Source of the DNA: Aquabacterium sp.
Lineage (GTDB): Bacteria > Pseudomonadota > Gammaproteobacteria > Burkholderiales > Burkholderiaceae_C
DNA length: 64,000 nucleotides
Direction of reading: 5' to 3'
Assembly (NCBI RefSeq): GCF_016234775.1
Contig: NZ_JACRAH010000001.1
Location: forward strand, 248,001-312,000
Shown: positions 47,562 to 64,000 of the stretch, one piece after another
Layout: each line of letters opens with the position of its first letter
Numbering within the stretch: the stretch's first letter is position 1
Program-made: the position numbers and the translations under genes
The notes under the pieces: generated by a model
Database searches by the model: none
Seen by the model: the letters and a program-made list of their open reading frames with translations, nothing else
Told to the model about the DNA's origin: nothing

Positions 47562-50500
47562 ATGGCCGTGACCACCGTCGCACAATTCGCCGCGGAGCTG
47601 AATCGCCCGGCTGCGACACTGCTGGATCAGCTGCATTCTGCTGGCGTGCCCAAAGGCGCACCGGAAGATGTGCTCACGGAAGCCGATAAGGAGCGTCTGC
47701 TGGATCACCTGCGCAGCGCCCACGGCTCCGCAGGCGCAGATCGCAAGAAGATCACCCTGACCCGCAAGTCGACCACCGAAATCAAGCAAGCCGATGCCTC
47801 TGGCAAGGCGCGCACCATCCAGGTGGAAGTCAAGAAGAAGCGCGTTTTCGTCAAGCGTGATGACGCTACTGGCGGCGACGAAGCCGTCAATGCCGCACAA
47901 GCTGCCCAGGAAGAAGCCGAACTGGCTCGCCGGGAAGAAGAAGCGCGCGCTCAGGCTGAAGCGCTTCGTGTGCAGGAAGAACAACTGGCCGAAGCCCGTC
48001 GCCTGCGTGAAGAGCAGGAGCGCCGCGAACGTGACGAAGCAGAAGCGCGTGCTCGTGCTGCTGCCGAACAGGCTGCGCGTGATCTGGCCGAGCGTGAACT
48101 GGCTGCCAAGAAGGGCGGCAAGGCCGCTGTGGCAGCCAAGACTGCCGAGCAGGATGCCGCTGAACGCGAAGCCGCTGCCGCACGCCGTGCCGCCGCGCTC
48201 GAAGCCGGCCGCGCTGAAGCCGCTGCCTTGACGGCTGCCGCACAACGTGGCTCGCGTAGTGGTCAAGCGAAGGCTGCTGCCGAGAAGGCTGCGGCTGAAG
48301 AGGCCAAGGTTGCCAGCGCTGTGGAAGAGGCCAAGGTTCAGGAAGCCGTTGCGCAAGCTGCTGCGCCTGCACCAGCCCCTGCGCCGGCCGTGGCGCCCAC
48401 CATGCCGCTGCCTGTCGCTGATGCACCAAAGCCCACCGCCGTGCGTGTGGTGAAGGCTGCAGATATCGAAGCTGAAGAAAAGCAAAAGGCTGCTGATCTG
48501 GCCAATCGCCGCAAGGCCGCGGAAGCTGAAGCTGCCGCCATCCGCGCGATGATGAATGCACCCAAGAAGGTGCTCACTGCCAAGAAGCCAGAAGAACCCA
48601 AGCCTGCCGAAGCGGCCATCAAGGGCACGATTCACAAGCCCAAGGGCGCGCCTGGCGCTGCTGCTCCTGCAGCTGGTGCTGGTGCCAAGCCTGGCGACAA
48701 GAAGTCGGTCAAGTCCGAAAAGCTGTCGTCGAGCTGGGCCAATGACGACAAGAAGCGCGGCGGACCTACGCCGGCCAAGGGCCGCACCGATGCAGGTGCT
48801 GGTGCGAACCGTGGTGGCTGGAAGGCCCCTGGTGGTGGCCGTGGCGGCCGTCGTGGTGACCGAGGCGATCGTGGTGACAACCAGTCCAACTTCGTGGCAC
48901 CGACCGAGCCGCAAATCCTGGAAGTCCACATTCCCGAGACCATCTCCGTGGCCGACCTGGCTCACAAGATGTCGGTGAAGGCTTCCGAGCTCATCAAGCA
49001 GATGATGAAGCTGGGTCAGATGGTCACCATCAACCAGCAGCTGGACCAGGAAACCGCCATGATTCTGGTGGAAGAAATGGGCCACAAGGCGTTTGCCGCC
49101 AAGCTGGACGATCCTGATGCCTTCCTGGAAGAAGAACACGAAGATCAAACGGCAGAGTCGCTGCCACGTGCGCCTGTCGTGACCGTCATGGGTCACGTCG
49201 ACCACGGCAAGACCTCGCTGCTGGACTACATCCGTACGACCCGCGTGGCCTCTGGCGAAGCCGGTGGCATCACGCAGCACATCGGTGCGTACCACGTGGA
49301 CACGCCTCGCGGCATGATCACCTTCCTCGACACCCCGGGTCACGAAGCCTTCACGGCCATGCGTGCTCGCGGTGCCAAGGCAACCGACCTGGTGATTCTG
49401 GTGGTGGCGGCCGATGACGGCGTCATGCCCCAGACCAAGGAAGCCATCCACCACGCCAAGGCTGCGGGTGTGCCCATCGTTGTGGCGATCAACAAGATCG
49501 ACAAGCCTGGTGCCAACCTCGACCGCGTGAAGCAAGAGCTGGTTGCCGAAGAAGTCGTGCCTGAAGAATACGGCGGTGATTCACCCTTCGTGCCGGTGTC
49601 GGCCAAGGTGGGTACCGGTATCGACGATCTGCTGGAGCAAGTGCTGCTGCAGGCCGAAGTGCTGGAACTGAAGGCCCCGGCTGCCTCCATGGCCAAGGGC
49701 CTGGTGATCGAAGCCCGTCTGGACAAGGGCCGCGGCCCTGTGGCCACCGTGCTGGTGCAGTCCGGTACGCTCAAGCGTGGCGACGTGGTTCTGGCTGGTT
49801 CCAGCTATGGCCGTGTCCGCGCCATGCTCGACGAAAATGGCAAGAACGCCACCGAAGCCGGTCCTTCCATTCCCGTGGAAATCCAGGGCCTCACCGAGGT
49901 GCCGGGCGCTGGCGACGAGTTCATGGTGCTGAGCGACGAACGCCGTGCCCGTGAAATCGCCACCTTCCGTCAAGGCAAGTACCGTGACGTCAAGCTGGCC
50001 AAGCAACAGGCCGCCAAGCTGGAAAACATGTTCGAGAACATGGGTCAGGGCGATGTCCAGACCCTGGGCCTGATCATCAAGGCCGACGTGCAAGGTTCGC
50101 AGGAAGCCCTGGCTACCTCGCTGCTCAAGCTGTCGACGCCCGAAGTCAAGGTTCAGATCGTGCACGCCGCCGTCGGTGGCATCAGCGAGTCGGACGTCAA
50201 CCTCAGCATTGCCTCGAAGGCCGTCATCATCGGCTTCAACACCCGTGCTGACGCCGGTGCGCGCAAGCTGGCCGAGAACAACGGCGTGGACATCCGCTAC
50301 TACAACATCATTTACGACGCTGTGGATGATGTGAAGGCAGCGATGGGCGGCATGCTGGCACCCGAACAACGTGAAGAAGTCATCGGTTCTGCCGAGATTC
50401 GTCAGGTGTTCATCGCCTCCAAGATTGGTACGATCGCAGGTTGTATGGTCACCAACGGCGTGGTCCGCCGCAGCGCTCGTCTGCGACTGCTGCGCGAAAA

Positions 50501-50669
50501 CGTGGTCATCTACACCGGCGAGCTGGAAGGTCTCAAGCGCTTCAAGGACGACGTCAAGGAAGTGCGCGAAGGTTTCGAGTGTGGTCTCAATATCAAGGGC
50601 TACAACGACATCAAGGAAGGCGACGTCCTCGAGTTCTTCGAAATCAAGGAAGTGGCCCGTACGCTGTAA
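47562..50669 (+). CDS. infB: Translation initiation factor IF-2
   Basis: 1035 residues. The IF2-N module ([22 protein letters not shown]) is followed by a long Ala/Glu/Lys/Arg-rich, probably coiled segment to about residue 430. A Gly/Arg-rich linker ([14 protein letters not shown]) precedes the second IF2-N module. The G domain starts near residue 543, with [17 protein letters not shown] and NKID; domains II-IV complete the protein. It recruits fMet-tRNA to the 30S subunit. The ATG at 47562 is the family start. An internal start for a short IF2 form is possible but not shown by sequence. Confidence 0.97.
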
Positions 50670-50696
50670 ACAAACGCACAGGCTACCCCCCCGAAC

Positions 50697-50724
50697 AACC
50701 CCGCCTGAACCCAGGCGGGGTTTG
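50697..50724 (+). terminator. Terminator-like hairpin between infB and rbfA
   Basis: AACCCCGCCT (50697-50706) with AGGCGGGGTT (50713-50722), loop GAACCC, followed by only three T (TTTG). It is probably a partial terminator or mRNA stabiliser, since rbfA and truB are expected to share this operon. Confidence 0.6.
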
Positions 50725-50765
50725 TGCTTGAAGGGATGCCACTGCGCCGACAGCAGGAATTCACC

Positions 50766-51182
50766 ATGCGCCATAAACGTTCTACCCCCAACCGCAGCTT
50801 GCGCGTCAACGATCAGATCCAGCGGGATGTGGCCGAGTTGATCCGTGACCTGAAAGACCCGCGCATCGGCAGCATGGTGACGATCACCAATGTGGAAGTG
50901 ACGCCGGATTACGCCCACGCCAAGATCGGTTTTTCTCTCCTGGTGGGAGACCCTGTCGAGTGCGAAAAGGGCCTCAACGAAGCGGCCGGCTACATCCGCA
51001 ATGGTTTGTTCAAGCGCCTGCAGATCCATACCGTTCCTACCTTGCACTTCCACTTTGACCGCACCACCGAGCGTGCGCTGGAGTTGAGCGCACTGATCAA
51101 CCGCGCCGTGGCCGACAAGGCCAAGGATGCAGATGAGCAAGCCGCAGCGTCAGAGGGCAAAGACGGAGGCGAACAGCCTTGA
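50766..51182 (+). CDS. rbfA: 30S ribosome-binding factor A
   Basis: 138 residues, a KH-like protein for late 30S maturation and cold adaptation. The core is [41 protein letters not shown] and [16 protein letters not shown] charged tail of about 25 residues follows. The ATG at 50766 follows agcaggaattcacc. Its stop overlaps the truB start. Confidence 0.95.
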
Positions 51183-52219
51183 ACAAGCCCGTGCGTCAAC
51201 CGCGTCGCCAACTGCATGGCGTCATCCTGCTTGACAAGCCTCTGGGCCTGTCGAGCAACGATGCATTGCAGAAGGTGCGCCGCTTGATGCGCGCTGAAAA
51301 GGCGGGTCATACCGGCACGCTGGACCCGCTGGCGACCGGTTTGTTGCCGCTGTGCTTTGGTGCAGCCACCAAGTTTTCTCAGGTGTCCCTGGACGCCGAC
51401 AAGCGCTACACCGCCACGCTGAAGCTCGGGCAGACCACGACGACGGGTGATGCCGAAGGCGAGATCCTGCAGACTCGCCCGGTGACGGCCGAGCAGGTGA
51501 ACGCAAGCCGCATCGCCGAGGCCTGCGAGGCCTTCACCGGCCCCATCTCGCAGATCCCACCCATGCACTCGGCGCTGAAGCATCAGGGCCGTGCGCTGTA
51601 TGAATATGCCCGCGAAGGCATCGAGATCGAGCGCCCCGCCCGTGACGTGACCATTCATGCGATTGACATCGTCAGCTGGCAAGGTGACGAGTTGGTGCTG
51701 GATGTTCGCTGCAGCAAGGGCACGTATATCCGTACGCTGGCCCAGGATATCGGCGAACATTTAGGCTGCGGTGCGCACCTGATCGGCTTGCGCCGTACAG
51801 GCAGCGGCGGCGTGAGCCTGCAAGGCGCGGTGACGCTGGATGCCATGCTGGCCATGTCCGAGCAAGAGCGTGACGCGCACTTGCAGCCGGCCGATGTTTT
51901 GTTGAATGATTGGGCCGATGTGCTGTTGTCCGAGTCGGAGGCCGCGCGCTTTCTGACCGGCCTGCGTCGTCGGACGCATCTGGCGGACGCGGCCCAAGTG
52001 CGTGTCTACGGTCCTGTGCCTGGCCAAGGCAAGGGCGAAGGCCGCGTCTTGCTGGGCAGCGCCCACATCAAGGCCGGTGAATTGATCCCGACGCGTCTGC
52101 TGAGTCCAACTGAAGTACAAGGCCTGCTTGAAGTGCAGGCCGCGGTTCAGGCGACAGTGCAGACGCAAACCGAAACCGCTGACGCCGCCGCGCTACGTCA
52201 GCCCGACCCTGTTCTTTGA
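51179..52219 (+). CDS. truB: tRNA pseudouridine-55 synthase
   Basis: 346 residues, makes pseudouridine 55 in the T loop of tRNAs. Blocks are [19 protein letters not shown], catalytic Asp49 in [36 protein letters not shown] and [14 protein letters not shown]. It starts with a rare TTG at 51179 that overlaps the rbfA stop (TTGA); GGAGG nine bases upstream supports it, and no ATG is in a suitable place. The C-terminus has an extra Thr/Ala-rich tail after the PUA-like part. Confidence 0.94.
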
Positions 52220-52240
52220 TTTCAGACCAGTGAGCTTCCT

Positions 52241-54067
52241 ATGAGTACTCAAATCCGCAATATTGCGATCATCGCCCACGTTGACCATGGCAAAACGACC
52301 ATGGTTGACCAATTGCTGCGTCAAAGCGGTACCTTTGCCGACCACGAAAAGGTCGTCGATACCGTGATGGACAACAACGCCATCGAACGCGAACGCGGTA
52401 TCACCATCCTGGCGAAGAACTGCGCCGTGAGCTGGGAAGGCACGCACATCAACATCGTCGACACCCCGGGCCACGCGGACTTCGGCGGTGAAGTCGAGCG
52501 CGCGCTGTCCATGGTGGACGGTGTGGTGTTGCTGATCGACGCGCAAGAAGGCCCGATGCCTCAGACGCGCTTCGTGACCAAGAAGGCACTGGCCCTGGGT
52601 CTGAAGCCCATCGTCGTGGTCAACAAGGTGGACAAGCCCGGTGCCAAGCCTGACGCCGTCGTGAACGCCGCTTTCGACCTGTTCGACAAGTTGGGTGCCA
52701 CCGACGAGCAGCTGGACTTCCCCGTGGTGTACGCATCGGGCATCAACGGCTGGACCTCGCTGGAAGAAGGCGCACCTGGTGAGAAGTGGGGCAACGACAT
52801 GTCGGCCCTGTTCAACACCGTGCTCAAGCACGTGCCTGCCCAGACGGGTGACCCTGCTGCCCCACTGCAACTGCAGATTTCGGCACTGGACTTCTCGACC
52901 TTCGTCGGTCGCATCGGCGTGGGCCGCATCAGCCAAGGCACGGCCAAGCCCGGCCAGGACGTGGTCGTGATGGAAGGCCCTGAGGGCAAGCCCATCAAGG
53001 GTCGCATCAACCAGGTGCTGACTTTCCAGGGGCTGGATCGCGTGCAAGTGACCGAAGCCGGTCCTGGCAACATCGTGCTGATCAACGGTATCGAAGACGT
53101 CAACATCGGCGTGACCGTGACCGACCCGATCAACCCGGCTCCGCTGCCCATGCTGAAGGTGGACGAGCCCACGCTGACCATGAACTTCTGCGTGAACAAC
53201 TCGCCTCTGGCCGGTCGTGAAGGCAAGTACGTGACCAGCCGTCAGATCTGGGACCGTCTGCAGAAAGAGCTGCAACACAACGTGGCCCTGCGCGTGAAGG
53301 AAACCGACGAAGACGGTATCTTCGAAGTGTGCGGTCGCGGCGAACTGCACCTGACCATCTTGCTGGAAAACATGCGCCGCGAAGGCTATGAACTGGCCGT
53401 GTCCAAGCCCCGCGTGATGTTCAAGGACATCAACGGCGAGAAGTGCGAGCCAATGGAGCTGGTCACTGCCGACGTGGAAGAAATCCACCAAGGTGGCGTG
53501 ATGCAGGCGCTGGGTCTGCGCAAGGGCGATCTGGTCAACATGGAGCCGGACGGTCATGGCCGCGTGCGCCTGGAATACCGCATTCCTGCTCGTGGCCTGA
53601 TCGGCTTCAGCAACGAATTCATGAACCTGACGCGTGGTTCTGGCCTGATCTCGTCGATCTTCGACGGCTATGAGCCGCACAAGGGTGAAATCGGTGGCCG
53701 CAAGAACGGCGTGCTGATCTCCATGGACGACGGTGAAATCTTCACCTACGCCCTGGGCAAGCTGGACGACCGTGGCCGCATGTTCGTGAAGCCGAACGAC
53801 CCCGTGTACGAAGGCATGATCGTCGGCATCCACAGCCGCGACAACGACCTGGTGGTCAACGCCACGCGAACCAAGCAGCTGACCAACTTCCGCGTGTCCG
53901 GCAAGGAAGACGCGATCAAGATCACGCCTCCGATCGACCTGACGCTGGAATACGGCGTGGACTTCATCGATGACGACGAGTTGGTCGAAATCACGCCCAA
54001 GTCGATCCGTGTGCGCAAGCGCCACCTGAAGGAACACGATCGCAAGCGTGCTTCGCGCGAAGCTTGA
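52241..54067 (+). CDS. typA: Ribosome-associated GTPase TypA/BipA
   Basis: A translational GTPase of 608 residues, involved in 50S assembly and stress adaptation. The G domain has [15 protein letters not shown], the switch region [22 protein letters not shown] and NKVDKPGA. Domains II, III and V and the BipA-specific C-terminal domain (about 480-608, [18 protein letters not shown]) are complete. It starts 21 bases after truB and ends at a strong terminator, so it may close the operon. Confidence 0.97.
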
Positions 54068-54108
54068 AGCTGATTCACGTGCAGGCCCGAACGGGCTAGT
54101 ACGATACG

Positions 54109-54141
54109 AGGGCTGCACCTGCAAGGGTGCGGCCCTTTTTT
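54109..54141 (+). terminator. Rho-independent terminator after typA
   Basis: AGGGCTGCACC (54109-54119) with GGTGCGGCCCT (54126-54136), one T-G pair, six-base loop and T-run to 54141. Confidence 0.92.
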
Positions 54142-54158
54142 CATGTGGAGTGAAGTTG

Positions 54159-55277
54159 ATGGAAAGCTTGGTTCTGACAGAGGTGATCGGTGGCCTGGGC
54201 GTGATCACGCTCAATCGCCCCAAGGCCCTCAATGCCTTGTCGCTGGAGATGGTGCGTGAACTGCACAATGTGCTGGCTGGCTGGCGCACCGACGAGGCCG
54301 TGCTGGGCGTGTTGCTCAAGGGCGCGGGCCGGCTGGACGAGCACGGCAAGCCTCATGGCGCCGTGCATTTTTGCGCGGGCGGTGACATCCGTTTCATCCA
54401 CCAGGCAGCGGTAACGGGGGACTTGAGCCTCGACGACTTCTTCACCGAAGAGTATGCGCTGGATCACCTCATCCACACCTATCCCAAGCCATTCGTGGCC
54501 TGGATGGAGGGCATCACCATGGGTGGGGGCATGGGCCTGGCGCAGGGGGCGACGTGGCGCGTGGCCACGGAGTCCATTCGCATGGCGATGCCAGAGACGC
54601 GAATTGGCTTGTTTCCGGACGTGGCGGGTGGCTACTTTCTGTCGCGTTGTGCGGGCGCGATCGGCGAGTACCTGGGTGTGGTTGGCCCCCATCTGCACGT
54701 GACGGACGCCTTGACGCTGGGGCTGGCCGACGCGCACGCCCAGGCGGCCAGCTTGCCGGATTTGCTGGCATCGTTCAGGCAGATGCGCGCAACGTCTGCG
54801 GATGATTTGTTGAGTCGGGTGAAAGCTCATGTGGAGGCCCATGGGCTGCCAACCTTGCCGGAGGCGACAGTGACCGTGCATGCCGATCAGATCAACCGGC
54901 ATTTCAGTCTGCACACCATGCCGGAGATCGAAGCATCGCTCCAGCGCGACGACAGCGAGTGGGCTCAGGGTGTCTTGCGCCAGATGGCGGGGCATTCGCC
55001 TTTGATGATGTGCGTCACGCTGGAGCAGATCCGCCGTGCACGCTCCATGAGTCTGGCCGATGTCTTTCGCATGGAGCGCGGGATGGTCCGCCAGTGTTTC
55101 GCCTTGCGCAAGGGGCGCGATAGCGAGACGGCTGAAGGCGTACGCGCCCTAGTGATTGACAAGGATCAGCAGCCCAAATGGAGGGCAAGCAGCCTGTCTG
55201 AGGTGTCACCCGCGTCGGTGGAGGTCTTTTTTGAGTCTCCCTGGCCTTTGCGATCACACCCGCTGAGGGATTTGTGA
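54159..55277 (+). CDS. 3-hydroxyisobutyryl-CoA hydrolase-like crotonase
   Basis: 372 residues, length and motifs of HIBCH rather than of ordinary enoyl-CoA hydratase (about 260). Motifs are FCAGGDIRF (oxyanion Gly-Gly), EEYALDHLIHTYPKPFVAWMEG, MGGGMGLAQGATWRVATES, and Glu146 and Asp154 in PETRIGLFPDVAGGYFLS, which match the catalytic acids of HIBCH. The likely role is valine degradation. The C-terminal helical region follows, including RMERGMVRQCF. ATG at 54159 with GGAG upstream, 18 bases after the typA terminator. Confidence 0.88.
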   Translation: MESLVLTEVIGGLGVITLNRPKALNALSLEMVRELHNVLAGWRTDEAVLGVLLKGAGRLDEHGKPHGAVHFCAGGDIRFIHQAAVTGDLSLDDFFTEEYALDHLIHTYPKPFVAWMEGITMGGGMGLAQGATWRVATESIRMAMPETRIGLFPDVAGGYFLSRCAGAIGEYLGVVGPHLHVTDALTLGLADAHAQAASLPDLLASFRQMRATSADDLLSRVKAHVEAHGLPTLPEATVTVHADQINRHFSLHTMPEIEASLQRDDSEWAQGVLRQMAGHSPLMMCVTLEQIRRARSMSLADVFRMERGMVRQCFALRKGRDSETAEGVRALVIDKDQQPKWRASSLSEVSPASVEVFFESPWPLRSHPLRDL

Positions 55278-55304
55278 CGCGCGGATTGGGGATGCCTGGC
55301 CGGT

Positions 55305-56012
55305 TCAGGACCGGATCCAGGCAAGGCAGGCCGAATGCGGCACGGCCAAGGGCAGGTGAGCAAGGTCAAGCCACTCGACGAGGCCGCCTTCTGGTCTGTG
55401 CCATTGCCCTCGCGCCGGTGTGGGCGCCAGCCCCAGTTCCACCTGGTCAGGCGGTGTGATCAGGCCGGTTCCAACAGCCTTCAGGCAGGCTTCCTTGCGT
55501 GTCCAGGCGGTGTAGAGCACGCTTGCCTGGTCAGCTGGTGTGGTGGCGCGCCATGTGCGCAGTTCAGCCTGACTGAACACGCTTTCAGCCAGATCTTGCA
55601 TGTGGGGCCACGGCTTGTGCATTTCGAGGTCGACACCGATCTCCCAGTGGGGGTGCAGTGCGATCAGGGCCCAGTTGTCGCTGTGGGTCAGATTGAAGTG
55701 AAGTGCTGGCGACGCCGTCATCAGCGTGGGTTTGCCGTTTGCGCGTGTCGTCATGGGCACGTCGCGAGGCGCGCACAGGCAAGCCGGGGCCAGCAGGACA
55801 CGTAAGGCCGCGTGTGCTGCCATGTACCGATGCGCATCGACAGCGCGCGCAAAACGTGCGGCACGTTGTTTGTCTTCGTCGCTCAGGCAGGCCCTGGTGG
55901 CAGCGCTGACTTCGTCATCCATGTCGGGTAGTTCGACCAGATGGAGTTGGCAGTCCTCCTGAAAGCGGCTCGACAAGGTCTGTTGTGCCGCAGCATGGAC
56001 ATCCCAGGTCAC
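55305..56012 (-). CDS. Sfp-type 4'-phosphopantetheinyl transferase
   Basis: 235 residues, the pseudo-dimeric Sfp type that activates carrier proteins of NRPS/PKS systems with phosphopantetheine from CoA. Motifs are FNLTHSDNWALIAL (105-118), the Mg-binding GVDLE (126-130) and WTRKEACLKAVGTGL (170-184). It starts with GTG at 56012, overlapping the stop of the upstream methyltransferase gene (GTGA). Its presence 4.6 kb from an NRPS gene suggests it serves that enzyme's carrier domain. Confidence 0.92.
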   Translation of the reverse strand: MTWDVHAAAQQTLSSRFQEDCQLHLVELPDMDDEVSAATRACLSDEDKQRAARFARAVDAHRYMAAHAALRVLLAPACLCAPRDVPMTTRANGKPTLMTASPALHFNLTHSDNWALIALHPHWEIGVDLEMHKPWPHMQDLAESVFSQAELRTWRATTPADQASVLYTAWTRKEACLKAVGTGLITPPDQVELGLAPTPARGQWHRPEGGLVEWLDLAHLPLAVPHSACLAWIRS

Positions 56013-56806
56013 GATTTCAAGCGGAAATACAAGCCGCTGTAGGCATCGAAGAAATCTTCGGCGAAGCCCAGTGAGTGGAAGGTGCGCTCTGGAACCTCCC
56101 AGGCATCGACCAGTTCATAGCCCAGTTGTTCGACAGACTGGACGAACGCGGCTCTGTTGAAAACTTTGTGTGGCACGAAGGAACCGAAGCCGATGTTCTG
56201 TGTGGACACAAAGCCCGGGGCTTGGGTCAGTGGCAGTTTGTTGAGCAGAATGTGGCGGGGTTTGTGTACAGCGCGTGCCAGCAGTGCAGGCAGGTCGTAG
56301 GCTTCGATGAACTCCAGCACGCCGGCTGCCATCCAGATCTCGCTGTCGAGCCATCCTGATGGCCAGTCATCGGAGAAGGTCAGCGCCTGCGCGCCACGTT
56401 GGCTGGCCAGTTCCCGGCCTTGCGGGATGAATGCCGACAACTCATGGACACGCCACTGGATGCCCTCGGGATAGCGAAGGTACTGCTGGTAGGCGTAGTA
56501 CTGATTGCCAATCGATCCACCGATGTCCAGGACCGAACTGGCACCACTGGCAAAGGCTTCGCGCAGCCAGAAGATCACAGGATAGTCAAATGCCCAGATG
56601 CGCTTGGATCGTTCATCGACGTATTCTTGCGTGAATTTGTCGTGGCTGAACTCCGGCGACGCGGGCAACCAGGCTCGCGCCTCGGCAAAGGACTCGAAAT
56701 GCCCGCAGTGATAGCCACGTCCGCCAGGACCCAGGTACCTGCGGATAGCGCGCTTGCGCAACAAGGTGCGGATCAGAGGCAGTCGTTTGATGTGGGCCAG
56801 TTGCAT
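56009..56806 (-). CDS. TIGR04325-like SAM-dependent methyltransferase
   Basis: 265 residues with a class I methyltransferase fold. The SAM motif is SVLDIGGSIGNQYY (91-104). Features shared with the TIGR04325 family are the basic N-terminus, YPVIFWLREA before the SAM motif and the late block LLNKLPLTQ...GFVSTQNIGFGSFVPHKVF (first parts shown). Such proteins are often found in polysaccharide or secondary-metabolite loci; the methyl acceptor is unknown. Coupled with the phosphopantetheinyl transferase that follows. Confidence 0.82.
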   Translation of the reverse strand: MQLAHIKRLPLIRTLLRKRAIRRYLGPGGRGYHCGHFESFAEARAWLPASPEFSHDKFTQEYVDERSKRIWAFDYPVIFWLREAFASGASSVLDIGGSIGNQYYAYQQYLRYPEGIQWRVHELSAFIPQGRELASQRGAQALTFSDDWPSGWLDSEIWMAAGVLEFIEAYDLPALLARAVHKPRHILLNKLPLTQAPGFVSTQNIGFGSFVPHKVFNRAAFVQSVEQLGYELVDAWEVPERTFHSLGFAEDFFDAYSGLYFRLKS

Positions 56807-56912
56807 GGTTGATCACGCTGCGAGCGGCAGAGTCGGGATTGAAGAATAAGATACACCGGGGGCGCGCGGCGAGATGCTGCGGTTTGGGTATGAAACGCAA
56901 AGCGAAGACATC

Positions 56913-58010
56913 ATGAAGAAGGTTTGGGTGCTGACCGCGGCACTGTTGGGGCTGGGCTTGGCCTTGTTCATTTTACTGTCCGTGGACGAACGTCTTCAGC
57001 GGTGGCGCCACGTGCCGACACACACGAATGCGGTGCCATTTGGGGTACTGGGCGATTCTGACAGCCACGCCTACCACGATGAGTTCAGCTTCGGGCACCG
57101 CCCCGAGGCTCGTGGTGGCGCCTTGAGGCAGCGTACATGGCAATGGACGGAGGTGCTGGGGCACCTGCGCAGTGAGCAGCTGGATCCTGGGCCATGGGGG
57201 CAATGGGGTACGCGGTACCGGCGCCTGTCGGTGCTGCGCGACGCCGTGGGGCAGGATGGACGTTTTCTCCGCAAAGAGGACTACCTCTACAACCAGGCCT
57301 ATTCTGGCGCGGTCTGCGCCAACCTCAATGTGGCGCCGCACGATCAGGTTGGTCGTCTGTTGACCACCATGGCGCGAGAGTCTGGGCGTTGGCAGCGTGG
57401 CGTGGTGGTGATCCGCATGGGGACCAACGATTTTGGCAGGCAGGAAAGCCTGGACGCCTTGTCTCGCGATCCGCTGGACCCCCAAGTCGTCGGCTCGATC
57501 GATGCGTGTCTGGGCCATATCGGGCAGGCAGTGGCGCGCTTGCATGCGGTCTACCCGGGCTTGCGTATCGTGTTGGTGGGCATCTTCAACAACGCGGAGT
57601 GGGAGAAGTTCCATCATCTTTGGCGTTCTCCTCAGGCCCAGTCCCGGATTCATCAGGGGCTGGCGCGTTTCGATGATGGCTTGAAGGCGCTTGCGCTAGG
57701 CAAGTCGGGGGTGGCCGTGTTTGATGACCAGGCCTGGTTTGCCGGGCTTTGGGGTTCGCGCCGTGCGACCGGGCAACCGGCCTATCGGAACGTGCGATTC
57801 GGCGAGCGCTTCGAGGTGCGCAATACCGGTGGGGATGAGCCGATGAACGCGACGCTGGCAGACGGCCACGCCGGATCGGTCTGGAATGCCCTGTGGGCCC
57901 AGGCGATGGTGGCGCTCCTGGTGGAGCGGTTCGGCGTGCCGGTGCCGCCTTTGCAGACCCAGGAACTGGTGCAGTTTGTGGATCCGGACGGGCGATTCGG
58001 CATGCGTTGA
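56913..58010 (+). CDS. SGNH-hydrolase-like protein, membrane-anchored or secreted
   Basis: 365 residues. The N-terminal hydrophobic segment (about 4-23) is an uncleaved anchor or signal. SGNH blocks are GVLGDSDSHAYHD (block I, Ser49), RMGTNDFGR (block III, Asn172) and a late D-G-H in LADGHAG (block V). The predicted role is esterase, acetyl-transfer or acyl-release chemistry outside the cytoplasm. It is the only plus-strand gene in the cluster, converging with the cupin gene (15 bases) and diverging from the methyltransferase. Start ATG at 56913; the ribosome site is weak. Confidence 0.75.
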   Translation: MKKVWVLTAALLGLGLALFILLSVDERLQRWRHVPTHTNAVPFGVLGDSDSHAYHDEFSFGHRPEARGGALRQRTWQWTEVLGHLRSEQLDPGPWGQWGTRYRRLSVLRDAVGQDGRFLRKEDYLYNQAYSGAVCANLNVAPHDQVGRLLTTMARESGRWQRGVVVIRMGTNDFGRQESLDALSRDPLDPQVVGSIDACLGHIGQAVARLHAVYPGLRIVLVGIFNNAEWEKFHHLWRSPQAQSRIHQGLARFDDGLKALALGKSGVAVFDDQAWFAGLWGSRRATGQPAYRNVRFGERFEVRNTGGDEPMNATLADGHAGSVWNALWAQAMVALLVERFGVPVPPLQTQELVQFVDPDGRFGMR

Positions 58011-58025
58011 CGTGCGGCAGGCTGA

Positions 58026-58895
58026 TCAGCCGGCGTAGCCCCTCATCTTGAGGTAGCGGTGCCACATGCGGGATTTGATGGCGTCCTTGAAGTCCGACTG
58101 GCCGATGCCTGAGGGGCTCAGTCCCACGCGGCCCAGTTGCTTGCGCAGCACATGGTTGAACGACAGCGCATCTTTCCAGCGAACGCTCTCGTCCGTGTTG
58201 AAAATGATCGACATCGAGATGGACACGTCGTCTGGCCCGTTGCGCACGTGGTGTCCTGCAATGAAGGGGATGTGCAGCGCCTCCCCCGGGCTGAACTCGA
58301 ATGGGGTCGCGAAGGCGTCACGTTCGATCGTCCAGGGCAGCTTGGTGTTTTCTCGGACCACATAGGCTTCCCTGTTGGGCTGTGACACCAGTCGGTCATC
58401 CCAGGGCAGACCCACGGTGACCGTCTTGCTGCCACGGAACTGCATCAGGAAGGTGGAGTAGCGGTCTATGTGAAAGGGCGTGACGCTGTTGGGCGAGGCG
58501 ATGAAAAGATAGAGTTGTGCGTCAATAGGCCGTTTTCCGACGCCGCGCAAGGCCATCAATGCAGCGACCTCGGCACACAGCGCCTTGTACAGGTCAGCAA
58601 AGGAGGGATCGACCTCTGGCGAGCGGACCATGATGTAGGAGTCGGTGGTCCGGATGGATTCGATGGTCTCTTCCAGCGTGCGTTCCTTGGGCTTCTTGCG
58701 GAAGGTGGACTCGAAGTCTGCCCCGACATCCAGCAAGCCCTTGGAATACATGACCTGCTGTTGAGGCAAGGTGGGCAGAACGCGTGAGAGGTTCTCCAGT
58801 GACAGCGCGGGGTGCCCCAGCAGTTTGTGGTGGAACTTGAACGGCTGTCTGTCCAGCAGTTCGCTCTTGATGTCGTCGGCAAAGCAGGGCGTCAT
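58026..58895 (-). CDS. JmjC/cupin-8-like oxygenase-type protein
   Basis: 289 residues. The iron facial triad is visible as H-x-D in TPFHIDRYSTFLMQF (His142, Asp144) and a distal His in FIAGHHVRNG (His215 or 216). FSPGEALHIP precedes it. This fits Fe(II)/2-oxoglutarate hydroxylases of the cupin-8/JmjC group, so oxidation of an amino-acid residue or product is plausible; the substrate is unknown. The ATG at 58895 is chosen because the open frame further upstream is not protein-like and runs under the neighbouring hydrolase. 17 bases separate it from that gene. Confidence 0.78.
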   Translation of the reverse strand: MTPCFADDIKSELLDRQPFKFHHKLLGHPALSLENLSRVLPTLPQQQVMYSKGLLDVGADFESTFRKKPKERTLEETIESIRTTDSYIMVRSPEVDPSFADLYKALCAEVAALMALRGVGKRPIDAQLYLFIASPNSVTPFHIDRYSTFLMQFRGSKTVTVGLPWDDRLVSQPNREAYVVRENTKLPWTIERDAFATPFEFSPGEALHIPFIAGHHVRNGPDDVSISMSIIFNTDESVRWKDALSFNHVLRKQLGRVGLSPSGIGQSDFKDAIKSRMWHRYLKMRGYAG

Positions 58896-58912
58896 GATGG
58901 TATGGCGTTGGA

Positions 58913-59752
58913 TCAGTTCAGATGTGCAGCAAAACGGGTGACGGCGTCGATCAGGCGTCGCTGGGCATGCAGCGTGGAGACGGTGTGATCGACATCGGGG
59001 ATCAGGTCGCAGGGCAGATCGGCCACGGCACCATAGGCTTTGAACGTGTCTCGCCACTGACCTGCGTAGTTGAACAGCCAGAGAAAGCTGCCTGAATAGA
59101 CCAGTTGCACACGGACTTGCTTGTCGACGATCACCTTCAGGCGCGCGGCGAACTCGTCGCGGGTGGGCGAGGCATACGGGTTGTCCAGCAACTGTTGCAT
59201 TGGCTCGCTTTGCCGGGGGGCAGGTCTCAGCCGTTTGAGCAGCAAGCCCGGCAAGCGCCCGGCCCATCCCATCAATGTCCCCGACGGATCGACGTTCAGT
59301 TGCCGCCAGGCGCGCACGAGCGACGTCTTCTTGTTGGGATAAGCGTGCGTGTCCATCAGCCACAAGGCCTTGAGGCGATCGTCCACCATGGCCGTCGACA
59401 CACCATGGTGTGCAGCCGAGCAGATGCCGGCCAGCGCGAAGGTCTGGATCGAGGTCAGGCGCTGGATGTGGTCCATCGCAGCCTGCAGGTCGGCGACGGC
59501 TTGCTGGTCATAGGACAAGGTCGAGTCGGATGCCTCGCTGTCACCTTGGCCGGACAGGTCAAGGCGCAGCACGGTGTGGCCTTGGGCGGCGAGTGCCCGG
59601 GCCAGTTTCACGTTGATCCGGTGAGGGCCCATGCGGTGGATGACGCCCGCATTGAGCAAGAGGATGGCGGTACCCCTGGATGGCCCATCCGGACGGGTCA
59701 GGGTGCCGGTCAGCCTGGCGCCCGGGCCGAAGGTGAGGATGTTTTCGTTCAT
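58913..59752 (-). CDS. Alpha/beta hydrolase with Cys at the nucleophile elbow
   Basis: 279 residues. The fold is shown by ILLLNAGVIHRMGPHR (oxyanion strand), LRLDLSGQGDSEAS and the final histidine in IPDVDHTVST. The nucleophile elbow reads A-G-I-C-S-A (Cys111), where Ser is usual. This recalls the 'hydrolase 1, exosortase A-associated' type, which has a similar G-x-C elbow (recollection, not a search). It overlaps the preceding hydrolase gene by four bases (ATGA). Possible roles are product release or editing for the NRPS. Confidence 0.82.
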   Translation of the reverse strand: MNENILTFGPGARLTGTLTRPDGPSRGTAILLLNAGVIHRMGPHRINVKLARALAAQGHTVLRLDLSGQGDSEASDSTLSYDQQAVADLQAAMDHIQRLTSIQTFALAGICSAAHHGVSTAMVDDRLKALWLMDTHAYPNKKTSLVRAWRQLNVDPSGTLMGWAGRLPGLLLKRLRPAPRQSEPMQQLLDNPYASPTRDEFAARLKVIVDKQVRVQLVYSGSFLWLFNYAGQWRDTFKAYGAVADLPCDLIPDVDHTVSTLHAQRRLIDAVTRFAAHLN

Positions 59753-60549
59753 GCCGATTCACCCTTCACGCTGGCAATCAGCAAGCGCAGCAACTCTGGT
59801 GGGGCCAGTGCGGCACCATTGGCCTCTTCAACATGCCAGGCGATGTCCGGGCCCGGTGCGGTGAGGTGACGCCAGGGTTGCCCCTTCGCGAGTTGTTGGT
59901 CGCCCAGGGCGGTCGACAGGGCCGAGGCCTTTGTGGCGATGTGGATGCACTCTGCCGCACAGGTGGGGTTCAGATCCTTGACCGACAGGGCCTGCATTTC
60001 GCTGATCCATGTCGGACTGACACCAAAGCCGATGATTTCGTCGCGAACGTCCCGGGACGGGCTTCTGGACTGGATGTAAGGATCGTAGGTTTGCGCGAGG
60101 TGGGCTTCGCCGAGTTCCTTCAGGTAGCTGGGCCCGTCCAGCAAGGGCTCCCACAAGACGAGTCGGTGCGGCACTGTCGGGCTGACCGCAGACGCCATCA
60201 TGGCGAGGGTGGCACCCAGTCGCACGCCCAGCCACACGGACTGCGTGGCGCGGGTTCGCAGGCTGAGTTCGGCATGCGCCAGCACGATGTCGTCTCGCCA
60301 ATGGGTCAGTGTGCCGTCTTCGTCCTGGCCTGCGGACTCGCCGCAACCAAAGTAGTCAAAGCGCATGACGTGGACACCTTGACGCGCAAGTTGCTCGGCC
60401 AGCAGGCGATACAACCGGTGCATGCGCACGGCTTCCTGGCCGAAAGGCGGGCACAGCAGGACCTGTAGCCTGGCGCCCTGGGCGGATGCCGGGGCGTGGT
60501 AGACACCGTATAGACGATGCGCTGGAGGGCCGAATAGAAAAGGTGTCAT
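59749..60549 (-). CDS. Alpha/beta hydrolase homologue with Arg at the nucleophile elbow
   Basis: 266 residues. The fold is recognisable: VLLCPPFGQEAVRMHRLYRLLAEQL (first part), MRFDYFGCGESAG. At the elbow, however, WLGVRLGATLA places Arg110 where Ser should be. No clear catalytic histidine is seen near the C-terminus. It resembles the 'hydrolase 2, exosortase A-associated' type, which carries the same G-x-R-L-G-A block (recollection). It may be a non-catalytic partner of the next hydrolase. It starts 36 bases after the NRPS stop. Confidence 0.8.
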   Translation of the reverse strand: MTPFLFGPPAHRLYGVYHAPASAQGARLQVLLCPPFGQEAVRMHRLYRLLAEQLARQGVHVMRFDYFGCGESAGQDEDGTLTHWRDDIVLAHAELSLRTRATQSVWLGVRLGATLAMMASAVSPTVPHRLVLWEPLLDGPSYLKELGEAHLAQTYDPYIQSRSPSRDVRDEIIGFGVSPTWISEMQALSVKDLNPTCAAECIHIATKASALSTALGDQQLAKGQPWRHLTAPGPDIAWHVEEANGAALAPPELLRLLIASVKGESA

Positions 60550-60585
60550 CTCAAGGTTGATGCGAGCGGAGCGTGGGGCACCGCC

Positions 60586-63500
60586 TCAGCGACGCAGAAT
60601 GCGGTTGAACCAGCCGCTCTTGGCTTCGGTGTCAGTGCCCGTTGGCGGCGCTGACGCAGGCGTGGTGGCGTCGGGCTGACTGCTGCCGGTTGTACCGGTT
60701 GCCGCTAGCTGGCCGAGTGTTTCGAAAATGATCCGACGAACGCTGATGGTGACGCCTGTGCGGCGCATGATTTCGGTCACAGCCTTCATCGCCAGCAACG
60801 AATGGCCGCCCAGGTTGAAGAAGTTGTCGTCCAGCGTGACCTCCTCGACATCGAGCAACTCCCTCCAGACATCGGCGATGGCCTTTTCCGTGGGCGTGAC
60901 TGGCAGGCGACCATGCGCCTTGGCCTTGTGCTCTACCGACGTGGTGGCGTCCGGGGGTTTGGGCAGGGCCGCGCGATCGGTCTTGCCATTGGGTAGCCGT
61001 GGCAGTTGCGCCAACAGAACAAAGTGCTGCGGCAGCATGTACTCTGGCAGCGTCCTGGCCAGTTCGGCCTTCAGCGCCTGCGGCAAGACCGATGGGCTTT
61101 GTGCATCACGGACCACGCAGTACGCCACCAGTCGCACATCGCCGGGATGGTCCTCACGGGCCATCACTACCACCTGTGAGATGGCGGGGTTGAGCTGAAG
61201 GGTGGCTTCGATCTCGCCAAGTTCGATGCGGTGGCCTCTTACCTTGACCTGATGGTCCAGTCGGCCCAGGTGTTCCAGTTCACCATTCGCGTGCAGGCGC
61301 CCCAGATCGCCGGTTCGGTACAGGCGCGCTTGGCCACCGGGCGTGAAAGGATCGGTGATGAAGCGCTCTGCCGTCAGTTCGGGACGGTGCAGATAGCCTG
61401 TGGCGACCCCCGCACCCCCAATGCAGATTTCGCCCGGCTCACCCGCACCGCAGGCTCGCCCTTCGGTATTCAGGATGTGAATTTGCGTGTTGGCGATGGG
61501 CTTGCCGATGCGGATACCTTGTTCAGGTGCATTGACACGCCAGCAGCTTGACCAGACCGTGGTCTCGGTTGGCCCGTACATGTTCCAGACGGCGGCACAG
61601 CGCGTCACGAGCTGGTTGGCCAGCTTGAGGGTCAGCGACTCGCCTCCCACCAGCGCCGTGAAACCCGGGCGTCCATTCCACCCTGCTTCGATCAGTGCAT
61701 GCCAGGTGCTGGGTGTGGCCTGCATCACGTCGATCGCATCCTCTACCTGCGCTTTGAGCAGGAAGGGGTCTCGTGCGTCTTCCGTCCGGCAAAGCACCAC
61801 TTCGGCCCCAACGAGCAAGGGCAGGAACAACTCCAGCACGGAGATGTCGAAGCTCAAGGTGGTGACCGCCAGCAAGCGCTGCCCTGCCTGCAATCCGGGC
61901 TCTTTGGCCATGCTTTGCAGGAAATTGATGACCGCACCATGGGGCACGACCACGCCCTTGGGCTTGCCAGTGGAGCCCGAGGTGTAGATCACGTAAGCAG
62001 CGTCCGAGGCCTGGGCATCACGTTGCGCGTCTGCCGTTGGCGGCGTGTCCGGGCGAGTCTGGATGAGTGCATCGTCGAGGTCTGTGAGCAGGGTCTTGTC
62101 GCGCGGCCAGTTGAGGACCTGCATGACATCGGTTCGGCTGATGATCAGCGCCAGACCTGCGTCATCGACCATGTGGGCCAGTCGTTCAGCCGGATAGTCT
62201 GGATCCAGCGGGACGTAGGCCGCACCGGCCATCAAGGTACCCAACACTGCGCCAAGCAGGTCCGGGCAGCGTGGCATGCACACACCGACGAGCGAGCCTC
62301 GGCCGATGCCGTGGGCGCGCAGGTGATGGGCGATCTGGCTGGCGCGGGCCCACAGTTCGGTGTGGCTATAGGCGCGTTCCCCCGTCTGACTCAGTGCGAT
62401 CGCTTTGGATGTGGTGTGAGCCTGTTGGCGCAACAGCGTGATCAGGTTGCCCTCAGATGCGGTCGCCGAGGCTTGCGCAGCCGGTGCTGGCAAGCTGGGT
62501 TGGCTCGCGGGCGAATTGGAATTGGCCTGCGCTGAGCCCGGCAGCTTGGCCGGCGCCTGGAAGGTGTAGCCTGACAGCGGACGATCGGGGTCGGTCACGA
62601 TTTCGCGCAGAAGGTTCTCCAGGTCTGCAGCGAAGCTGGCGACGGTGGCGGTTTCGAGAACGTCAGCATTGAAGGTGAAGACAAACTCGATGTGGTTGCG
62701 CGTTTCCACGCACCACAGTGCCAGGTCTTGCGCGGCACCCAGCATCGGCGTGGCCATGCGCTGGTGATCGACGTTGCCCCAGCGCGTGGTGCGCTCCCGC
62801 ACGTCCTGATAGGAGAAGGACACCTGGTGGATAGGCGGGCGACTGTAGTCGCGAGGCACCTGCATCACATGGACGAGGTGGTCGAAAGGCACGTCCGGGT
62901 AGGAGAAGGCATCGACCACTTTGCGGTGGACAGATGCCAGCCAGGACTGCATGGACATGTCGTCACGCGGTTGCATGCGCAGCGGCAACATGTTGACGAA
63001 GAAGCCCATCAGGTTTTCCAACGCCGGTTGCTCACGACCTCGAACGGGCGTGCCGATGACGAAATCGTCTTGCTTGCTGGCGCGGTGCAAGGCCAGGGCA
63101 TAGGCAGACAACAGCGTGATGTAGAGCGTGCGCCCCTGCTGCTGAGCCTGGGCTCGCAGCGCATCAGTGACGTCCTTGGCCAGGTTGAACTGGAAGGAGC
63201 CACCGCGGCCGGACATGGCGGGTGGGCGGGGGTGATCCAGCGGCAGCTCGATGTTGGGTGGCAGCGGCGTCAGTTGCTCACGCCAATAGCCCAGCTGACG
63301 CTGCAGCTCCGGCCCAGTCATCCACTCGTTGTGCCAGGCAGCAAAGTCACCGTAGCTCACCGTTAGGGGTGGCAGTCGCGGCTCGCGCTTTTCCAGGCAG
63401 GCTGCGTACAGCTCAGGCAGGTCGACATAAAGAAGGTCGAACGACCAGGCATCCCAGATCAGGTGATGGGCCTGGAACAGCAGGCCGTGTTCCTCCGGCG

Positions 63501-64000
63501 AGAGCCGGAACAGGCGCGCCGTGAACAAAGGTGCCTTTTCCGGGTTGTAAGGCGTCTCGACAAGCTCGGCGATGATCTTGTTCATCGTGGGCTTGCGCTC
63601 GGCCTCCGGCAAGTGGCTCAAGTCGTCATAGGGCAGCAGGCTGAAGGGGATTTCCGGCAGGATGCGTTGCACATCACCGTTTGGTGTGCGCTCGACCACC
63701 GTGCGGAAGATGCTCTGGCGCTGGACGAGCATGTGCCAGGCCTGGTTGAACGCTTCGACGTCAAGCGGACCCAGCAGGCGATGCCCTGTAGGGATGCTGT
63801 GCACCACGGTGCCGGGCGTCAGGTTTTCCAGGAACCAGACGCGTTCCTGCATTTGAGACAGGGGGGCCGTGGACTGGTCAGCCCGGATCGGGATGGTGTC
63901 GGCAGGGCCGCTGTTGGCTTTGGCTGTTGCCGCAAGCTGGTGTTTGGCATCCAGCAAGGCCTGGGCCAAGGCTGCAGGCGTGGGGTGATCGAAGATCATC
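60586..64000 (-). CDS. Non-ribosomal peptide synthetase, 3' part (carrier end - C - A - PCP)
   Basis: About 1138 codons of a gene that continues beyond the right edge. The first visible residues, IFDHPTPAALAQALL, are the end of a carrier domain from an upstream module. Next come a condensation domain with HHLIWDAW (His178-179, Asp183; HHxxxDG with Ala for Gly), and an Ala/Pro linker near 490-515. The adenylation domain shows YTSGSTGKPKG, MYGPTETTVW, YRTGDLGR, GRLDHQVKVRGHRIELGE and NGKTDR. A carrier domain follows, with LGGHSLLAM (Ser1067). Aligning to GrsA by eye gives pocket residues D-I-L-Q-L-G-M-V-W-K, close to the glycine code. No thioesterase or reductase domain follows; a 40-residue linker-like tail ends WFNRILRR. 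Confidence 0.93.
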   Translation of the reverse strand, partial: MIFDHPTPAALAQALLDAKHQLAATAKANSGPADTIPIRADQSTAPLSQMQERVWFLENLTPGTVVHSIPTGHRLLGPLDVEAFNQAWHMLVQRQSIFRTVVERTPNGDVQRILPEIPFSLLPYDDLSHLPEAERKPTMNKIIAELVETPYNPEKAPLFTARLFRLSPEEHGLLFQAHHLIWDAWSFDLLYVDLPELYAACLEKREPRLPPLTVSYGDFAAWHNEWMTGPELQRQLGYWREQLTPLPPNIELPLDHPRPPAMSGRGGSFQFNLAKDVTDALRAQAQQQGRTLYITLLSAYALALHRASKQDDFVIGTPVRGREQPALENLMGFFVNMLPLRMQPRDDMSMQSWLASVHRKVVDAFSYPDVPFDHLVHVMQVPRDYSRPPIHQVSFSYQDVRERTTRWGNVDHQRMATPMLGAAQDLALWCVETRNHIEFVFTFNADVLETATVASFAADLENLLREIVTDPDRPLSGYTFQAPAKLPGSAQANSNSPASQPSLPAPAAQASATASEGNLITLLRQQAHTTSKAIALSQTGERAYSHTELWARASQIAHHLRAHGIGRGSLVGVCMPRCPDLLGAVLGTLMAGAAYVPLDPDYPAERLAHMVDDAGLALIISRTDVMQVLNWPRDKTLLTDLDDALIQTRPDTPPTADAQRDAQASDAAYVIYTSGSTGKPKGVVVPHGAVINFLQSMAKEPGLQAGQRLLAVTTLSFDISVLELFLPLLVGAEVVLCRTEDARDPFLLKAQVEDAIDVMQATPSTWHALIEAGWNGRPGFTALVGGESLTLKLANQLVTRCAAVWNMYGPTETTVWSSCWRVNAPEQGIRIGKPIANTQIHILNTEGRACGAGEPGEICIGGAGVATGYLHRPELTAERFITDPFTPGGQARLYRTGDLGRLHANGELEHLGRLDHQVKVRGHRIELGEIEATLQLNPAISQVVVMAREDHPGDVRLVAYCVVRDAQSPSVLPQALKAELARTLPEYMLPQHFVLLAQLPRLPNGKTDRAALPKPPDATTSVEHKAKAHGRLPVTPTEKAIADVWRELLDVEEVTLDDNFFNLGGHSLLAMKAVTEIMRRTGVTISVRRIIFETLGQLAATGTTGSSQPDATTPASAPPTGTDTEAKSGWFNRILRR

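Follow-up and report, generated by a model that had tools for sequence, protein, structure and literature searches.

The locus described here raises the question of how a biosynthetic assembly line that ends in a carrier domain lets go of its product. It lies in a draft genome (4.27 Mb; G000) of Aquabacterium sp., in a window of 64,000 nucleotides that corresponds to bases 248001-312000 of contig C16 (335,501 bases). Since the contig runs past the window, the cluster could be read beyond the window edge, and coordinates above 64000 carry the window numbering on rightwards along C16 (73689 = C16:321689). The window holds the end of a hybrid polyketide synthase-nonribosomal peptide synthetase (PKS-NRPS) gene, followed by genes for two hydrolase-like proteins, HYD2 and HYD1, and by further accessory genes (Table 1). 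We consider it somewhat probable that this is a conserved specialised cluster whose chain is off-loaded in trans by HYD1, with HYD2, in place of a thioesterase (TE). All the genes listed in the first-pass annotation, namely an NRPS module, two hydrolases and cupin-8, SGNH, TIGR04325 methyltransferase and phosphopantetheinyl transferase (PPTase) genes, were found. Its biosynthetic cluster stands, although as a hybrid of PKS and NRPS, not an NRPS alone, once the open reading frame (ORF) is followed to 73689, and what it took for the right-hand end of the cluster is the 3' (left) end. Below, L-, G- and C-numbers denote loci, genomes and contigs, respectively.

The synthetase is a single ORF (60586-73689, minus strand) of about 4,370 amino acids, free of internal stops, with the Pfam domain order A-PCP-KS-AT-ACP-AMT-C-A-PCP-C-A-PCP (A, adenylation; PCP, peptidyl carrier; KS, ketosynthase; AT, acyltransferase; ACP, acyl carrier; AMT, embedded class III aminotransferase; C, condensation). 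Intact KS, AT, C, A and carrier domains, together with the PPTase gene, identify it as a hybrid PKS-NRPS. The KS motif TACSTS was present in 14 of 18 KS matches, and the AT motifs GHSxGE and SHAFHS, the latter of which we take to be of the malonyl type, in 18 and 17 of 19 AT matches, respectively, the window copy having all three. The AMT, placed after KS-AT-ACP, retained the catalytic Lys motif in 15 of 16 domains, the window's included. The Pfam scan detected no TE in the window synthetase, and no other integrated release domain (reductase or terminal C) was found in it; 39 amino acids follow its last PCP, compared with 32-59 across 27 terminal subunits of the family.

Immediately after the synthetase, HYD2 and HYD1 carry the nucleophile-elbow motifs GVRLG and GICSA. 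The altered nucleophiles reported at first pass are indeed present, as Arg and Cys, and they are shared by all relatives compared: the elbow residue was Cys in 27/27 HYD1 and Arg in 27/27 HYD2 sequences (eight of each from exosortase-genome or Lautropia loci, with partner cross-hits excluded). Likewise, Cys111, Asp134 and His256 were invariant in 34 HYD1 sequences and Arg110 in 34 HYD2 sequences. This invariance rules out local gene decay and, judging from these alignments, the Cys/Arg elbows are general to TIGR03100/TIGR03101-like pairs and no local peculiarity. In a HYD1 structural model (mean pLDDT 89.8), Cys111, Asp134 and His256 follow strands 104-110, 127-133 and 248-251, a placement as expected of a probable triad with the acid after strand 6. 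HYD2 (pLDDT 92.5), with Arg110 in the nucleophile position and Trp238 near that of the His, should be catalytically dead. Foldseek matched both folds to many α/β hydrolases, and the thioesterase DcsB and the curacin TE were retrieved with HYD1 at ranks 16 and 31. The two genes overlap in 27 of 34 loci, as counted from script-chosen starts and excluding L065, L069, L089 and L090. At L065, tandem HYD2-HYD1 pairs have a TIGR04325-like methyltransferase gene in between.

Conservation of the neighbourhood in relatives, proposed at the outset as the test of the cluster, was borne out. The order synthetase-HYD2-HYD1-cupin-SGNH (opposite strand)-methyltransferase-PPTase was kept in all eight loci nearest by HYD1 (60-71% identity), which rules out a chance gene neighbourhood, and the hydratase-family gene that adjoins the window cluster comes next in six of them as well. 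These loci belong to Comamonadaceae bacterium 2PF, Aquabacterium commune, A. parvum, three Aquabacterium metagenome-assembled genomes (MAGs) and two MAGs of higher-rank assignment. When named genomes were scanned with HYD1, 38 loci were recovered, in which neighbours were scored by tblastn (>60 bits, within the fetched stretch): HYD2 was present in 37, condensation domains in 33, the AMT in 30 and the PPTase in 29, and SGNH, methyltransferase and cupin genes in 11, 10 and 8, respectively. The five loci without condensation domains comprise three from Lautropia and two (L076, L090) near the end of the fetched stretch. The line recurs with HYD2/HYD1 in Aquabacterium, Piscinibacter, Rhizobacter, Variovorax, Thiomonas and Rhodocyclaceae, and unlinked in Lautropia; strains bearing the cluster include A. 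commune DSM 11901, A. parvum B6, Thiomonas delicata DSM 16361 and Rhizobacter sp. Root1221.

Co-occurrence of the AMT with HYD1 was observed within the genus. Among 42 Aquabacterium genomes (E <= 1e-55 for the AMT, E <= 1e-20 for HYD1), the AMT was detected in 19 and HYD1 in 20, including all 19 with the AMT; the twentieth has a partial HYD1 match. The two lay on one contig, less than about 11 kb apart, in 17 of the 19 genomes and on separate contigs in the other two. In an order scan of 399 genomes drawn, with HYD2 and AMT matches scored for up to six and up to four candidates per genome, respectively, the six best-scoring genomes for HYD2 were also the six best for the AMT; four of them share one genus label (Lautropia) and these are thus not six independent events, nor are the family genomes in general phylogenetically independent samples. 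Lautropia was considered as a counter-example on account of HYD pairs without a nearby line and was dismissed on finding the line elsewhere in the genome; the genus retains both, unlinked. No HYD match was found in the 18-20 kb read around three more distant AMT lines (G218, G279 and G021). At L107 (G410:C101), the 20 kb read contain a HYD2-HYD1-PPTase set and no assembly line; the full cluster of that genome is located elsewhere.

An alternative role for HYD1/HYD2 would be to edit mis-loaded carriers, in the manner of a type II thioesterase, or to modify the product, with release left to slow hydrolysis or to a housekeeping thioesterase. Editing thioesterases share the α/β-hydrolase fold with the pair, and the occasional separation of the pair from the line, including the one HYD2-HYD1-PPTase set without a line nearby, would suit such a role. 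The 19/19 co-occurrence of AMT and HYD1 within the genus argues against it, as does a Cys nucleophile with an Arg pseudo-partner, which we take to be atypical of type II thioesterases. Moreover, wherever the end of a line was read, that line showed no release domain, so that a role in editing only would leave release unexplained, and we regard this alternative as unlikely.

Off-loading by the pair draws further support from its closest named relatives. The nearest curated families of HYD1 and HYD2 are TIGR03100 and TIGR03101 (hydrolase 1 and 2, exosortase A system-associated), with which they share adjacency, HYD2 in first place, the Cys/Arg elbows and a carrier or ACP-like protein immediately upstream; they differ in scoring well below the family cut-offs, in having no exosortase A locus and in their partner, a PKS-NRPS. 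An exosortase/PEP-CTERM locus, a possibility raised in the first-pass annotation, was ruled out, as the four exosortase matches of the genome are on C27, C43 and C59 and not on C16. The HYD pair of G182, the one pair from an exosortase genome that was tested, scored above both cut-offs, and this pair and four others from exosortase genomes have the same Cys/Arg elbows. The G182 locus also encodes an ACP-like protein, and its acyl-CoA ligase belongs to the exosortase A-associated family TIGR03098 (799 bits). By eye, an ACP-like frame was found to end at the HYD2 start in four of five exosortase-genome loci; our own hidden Markov models (HMMs) missed these frames, and one of them run against NCBIfam scored below cut-offs. 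In the window it is the terminal carrier of the synthetase that directly precedes HYD2. The chain on which the pair acts would, we infer, be the one bound to this terminal carrier. The cluster family would thereby be tied to TIGR03100/TIGR03101, which NCBI names only as 'exosortase A system-associated', suggesting for these families and the HYD pair a common role in TE-free off-loading or transfer of carrier-bound acyl groups.

Several observations weigh against off-loading by HYD1/HYD2. The pair could consist of tailoring enzymes, and in Lautropia it lies far from the line. Within the genus, an AMT of 80-92% identity can go together with a HYD1 of just 31-39%, which would be unexpected of an enzyme that serves a single substrate. 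The scores against the curated families are modest, 73.1 bits for HYD1 against TIGR03100 (cut-off 168.45) and 100.7 bits for HYD2 against TIGR03101 (cut-off 202.75). Finally, G164 and the five relatives from exosortase genomes all have Asn at the position of HYD1 Asp134; a later Asp after the next strand, present in the five readable Asn134 sequences, could take its place. The presumed catalytic acid of HYD1 thus seems to be shifted between strands, from Asp134 in NRPS-linked proteins to an Asp after strand 214-220 in those with Asn134.

Where the chain goes after leaving the carrier was approached from the neighbouring genes and from the C-terminus of the synthetase. Polysaccharide genes, mentioned at first pass as possible neighbours, do accompany several relatives and are not found beside the window's own copy. 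Of the 14 relatives inspected, seven have Pfam-confirmed genes of this kind in the 10 kb that follow HYD1: a flippase (L063), a flippase, glycosyltransferases and a deacetylase (L066, L067), a UDP-glucose dehydrogenase (L068), a sugar transferase with Wza- and Wzz-type proteins (L072), glycosyltransferases and a deacetylase (L075), and a flippase and a glycosyltransferase (L077). In G164 (L044, G164:C99), the genes after HYD1 encode a nucleotidyltransferase, glycosyltransferases, two members of the epimerase family and a protein resembling polysaccharide lyases. No glycan genes were recognised, mostly by eye, in the other seven (L061, L064, L069, L080, L084, L086 and L089, Variovorax included), where the genes tested were those of a UbiA-family protein (L069), a sulfate permease (L080) and a radical SAM protein (L084). 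In Lautropia G009, both NRPS-type HYD2-HYD1 pairs (L035/L036 and L074) are embedded in polysaccharide loci, and the line is found at another site of the genome. Among the Glycos_transf_1 matches listed for 15 genomes, 19 are no more than 21 kb away from a HYD pair, in six genomes (five in G009, two in G164 and three each in G406, G407, G411 and G414), and none in the other nine. Spread evenly, the roughly 229 matches in 73 Mb would put about two there; the excess is overstated by gene clustering and by the post hoc choice of radius. The window genome has 21 Glycos_transf_1 matches, none of those listed being on C16.

The C-terminus recurs too. After the last carrier, all 27 terminal subunits have an Ala/Pro/Ser/Thr-rich linker and then a cationic, hydrophobic end, as in KSGWFNRILRR (window), KGGWLKRVLRR (2PF) and GGLMARMLGGLRKRH (Lautropia); these are 27 of 31 rows, excluding two of G218 and one upstream subunit each of G164 and KLAP50. 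The tails resemble the ends of Escherichia coli K-12 MinD (KKGFLKRLFGG) and FtsA (GSWIKRLNSWLRKEF), with no common descent implied. A tail motif matched 25 of the 27 tails and 59 of 1943 other ORF ends, a descriptive comparison as the pattern was derived from the same tails; it matches MinD and not FtsA. The short cationic tail may bind membranes, and a docking role is equally possible. The hydrophobic moment was high relative to shuffled sequences (shuffle fraction <0.1) in 16 of the 27 tails and not notable in 11, the window's among them (0.284).

Neighbouring polysaccharide genes and the cationic tail together make chain transfer to a surface glycan a serious, unproven reading. In this refinement of off-loading by HYD1/HYD2, the line, which its tail may anchor to the membrane, would hand the chain via the pair to a lipid-linked sugar or polysaccharide. 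It is in keeping with the downstream genes in half of the relatives inspected and in G164, the setting of the G009 pairs, the Glycos_transf_1 excess (with its overstatement), the MinD- and FtsA-like tails, and the place of the TIGR03100/TIGR03101 pair in the exosortase A locus; according to PMC3584217, Bcam1334 (TIGR03100) also sits in an exopolysaccharide cluster of Burkholderia cenocepacia. Conversely, the window copy and seven of the 14 relatives lack recognised glycan genes, a shared regulon or genomic hot spot could account for the neighbourhood, and the window's tail is not significantly amphipathic. We hold such a transfer to be possible, with the balance against it. The wider proposal of a membrane-tethered, TE-less line whose HYD pair moves the chain to a surface glycan or lipid-linked precursor, the same pair serving a stand-alone ACP in exosortase A loci, is put forward more tentatively still. 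If true, a nonribosomal peptide would be a polysaccharide decoration, and the recurring polysaccharide neighbours raise the possibility of glycans decorated with assembly-line peptides.

The substrates and the product we infer from the adenylation domains. The starter A domain is of the amino-acid type, with solved NRPS A domains as best matches, and the synthetase does not start with a fatty-acyl ligase as lines of the iturin type do. The nine-residue code, extracted at the presumed Stachelhaus positions, reads DVQYIAHVV in the starter, and the two later A domains share DILQLGMVW. PMC12283262 gives the codes DILQLGMIWK for glycine and DALWIGGTFK for valine, and Val236 and Gln239 as frequent in proline domains. 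Across the family, nine starter codes are Pro-like (DVQ[YF][IV]AHVV) and six Val-like (DALW[LF]GGTF); later-module codes that are not Gly-like were found in Thiomonas, Variovorax J22R193 and KLAP50. For the window this suggests Pro plus malonate, transaminated to a β-amino acid, then Gly and Gly. The predicted core is a β,γ-diamino acyl unit followed by glycine residues, and the predicted window chain is 3-amino-3-(pyrrolidin-2-yl)propanoyl-Gly-Gly. The starter A domain would load its amino acid (Pro-like code in the window, Val-like in other branches), a single malonate extension would follow, the AMT would convert the β-ketone to an amine, and glycine-like residues would be added. HYD1, through its Cys nucleophile, and the catalytically dead HYD2 would then remove the chain from the last carrier in trans and pass it to water or to an acceptor, possibly a glycan. 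The cupin protein (by hydroxylation), the methyltransferase and the SGNH protein would act in tailoring, and the PPTase would prime the carriers.

A search of the open-licence PubMed Central literature found, among the papers listed, no described match for the cluster or for the hydrolase pair. The PKS-NRPSs of the iturin/mycosubtilin and ralsolamycin types contain an embedded aminotransferase. As in those systems, KS-AT-ACP-AMT would yield a β-amino acyl unit that enters NRPS modules; unlike them, the window line starts with an amino-acid-type A domain in place of a fatty-acyl ligase, has few amino-acid modules and has no thioesterase. The glidonin synthetase (PMC10587159) is likewise a Burkholderiales NRPS whose product has an unusual C-terminal end, in that case putrescine, whereas the last domain of the window line is a carrier. 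Another explanation would be a siderophore or antibiotic cluster of the ordinary kind, whose product is secreted and whose tailoring genes are routine. PKS-NRPS, PPTase, cupin and methyltransferase genes are common in such clusters, and the patchy presence in 19 of 42 genomes fits a secondary metabolite. Against this stand the lack of receptor, transporter, resistance or regulatory genes among the cluster genes scanned, predicted residues without a siderophore ligand and the adjoining polysaccharide genes of several relatives, which together make this explanation improbable.

Table 1 Features of the cluster within the window (window numbering).
Feature	Position	Strand	Basis
C-terminal quarter of PKS-NRPS megasynthetase (C-A-PCP)	60586..64000, ORF to 73689	-	ORF reading, Pfam
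Condensation domain 2, active-site motif AHHLIWDAWS	62563..63876	-	Pfam
Adenylation domain of last module (AMP-binding + C-terminal part), code DILQLGMVW (Gly-like)	60982..62430	-	
Terminal carrier (PCP) domain	60700..60882	-	
C-terminal tail KSGWFNRILRR after flexible linker; candidate membrane-targeting or docking tail	60589..60621	-	
HYD2, α/β-hydrolase-fold predicted pseudo-enzyme; Arg110 at nucleophile position, Trp238 near His position	59749..60549	-	
HYD1, α/β hydrolase, probable triad Cys111-Asp134-His256	58913..59752	-	
Cupin_8/JmjC-type protein, conserved H142-x-D144...H215 metal site	58026..58895	-	30.8 bits, cut-off 27.4
SGNH-fold protein, hydrophobic N-terminus, conserved Ser49/Gly132/Asn172/His319	56913..58010	+	Pfam 32.7 bits, just below cut-off 32.9
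TIGR04325-family methyltransferase	56009..56806	-	172.8 bits, cut-off 80
Sfp/HetI-type 4'-phosphopantetheinyl transferase (PPTase)	55305..56012	-	

The conserved SGNH residues presumably have the catalytic roles typical of that fold. The first-pass annotation had pictured a minus-strand gene set joined by start/stop overlaps; there are two overlaps of 4 nt (HYD2/HYD1 and methyltransferase/PPTase), while the SGNH gene on the plus strand splits the set. The adjoining housekeeping genes it mentioned are present on both flanks: on the left infB, rbfA, truB and typA, named by reading translations, with an enoyl-CoA hydratase-family gene, and on the right acpS and a dus-like gene, the latter also named by its translation. 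An Rfam scan of 50000-64000 returned no RNA element matches. G+C content was 0.62-0.64 within the cluster and 0.60-0.62 in its surroundings, and with values so similar the composition shows no sign of a recent foreign insert.

The architecture of the line varies among relatives, for which HMMs built in this analysis were used in place of Pfam. A-PCP-KS-AT-ACP-AMT followed by C-A-PCP-C-(A)-PCP, in one or several genes, was found in Aquabacterium, Piscinibacter, Rhizobacter, a Rhodocyclaceae MAG, Thiomonas, Variovorax J22R193 and Lautropia (two Lautropia stretches start within the KS). As exceptions, the AMT was not seen in Variovorax J22P168 nor in the G164 line read, and KLAP50 is atypical. 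In Thiomonas, Variovorax, Rhodocyclaceae and Lautropia, no A domain could be recognised in the last module, and in AquaE6, G432, G433, G443 and G453 the one present there is truncated or gives a weak match. An additional A-less C-PCP precedes a full last module in A. commune, A. parvum, Burk63_240 and G451. Perhaps A domains were lost repeatedly, with one Gly A domain possibly loading several carriers. The A-less C-PCP stands between two complete modules in L056, L060, L055 and L129 (A. commune, A. parvum and others). The first C domain of the Aquabacterium/Rhizobacter branch reads SHLVFDG at the HHxxxDG motif, with Ser for the first His and the second His retained, while Val-type branches have HH. 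One module of L128 (G444:C154) has two tandem A domains, and the synthetase of the Rhodocyclaceae MAG (L104 and L066) ends in two tandem carrier domains.

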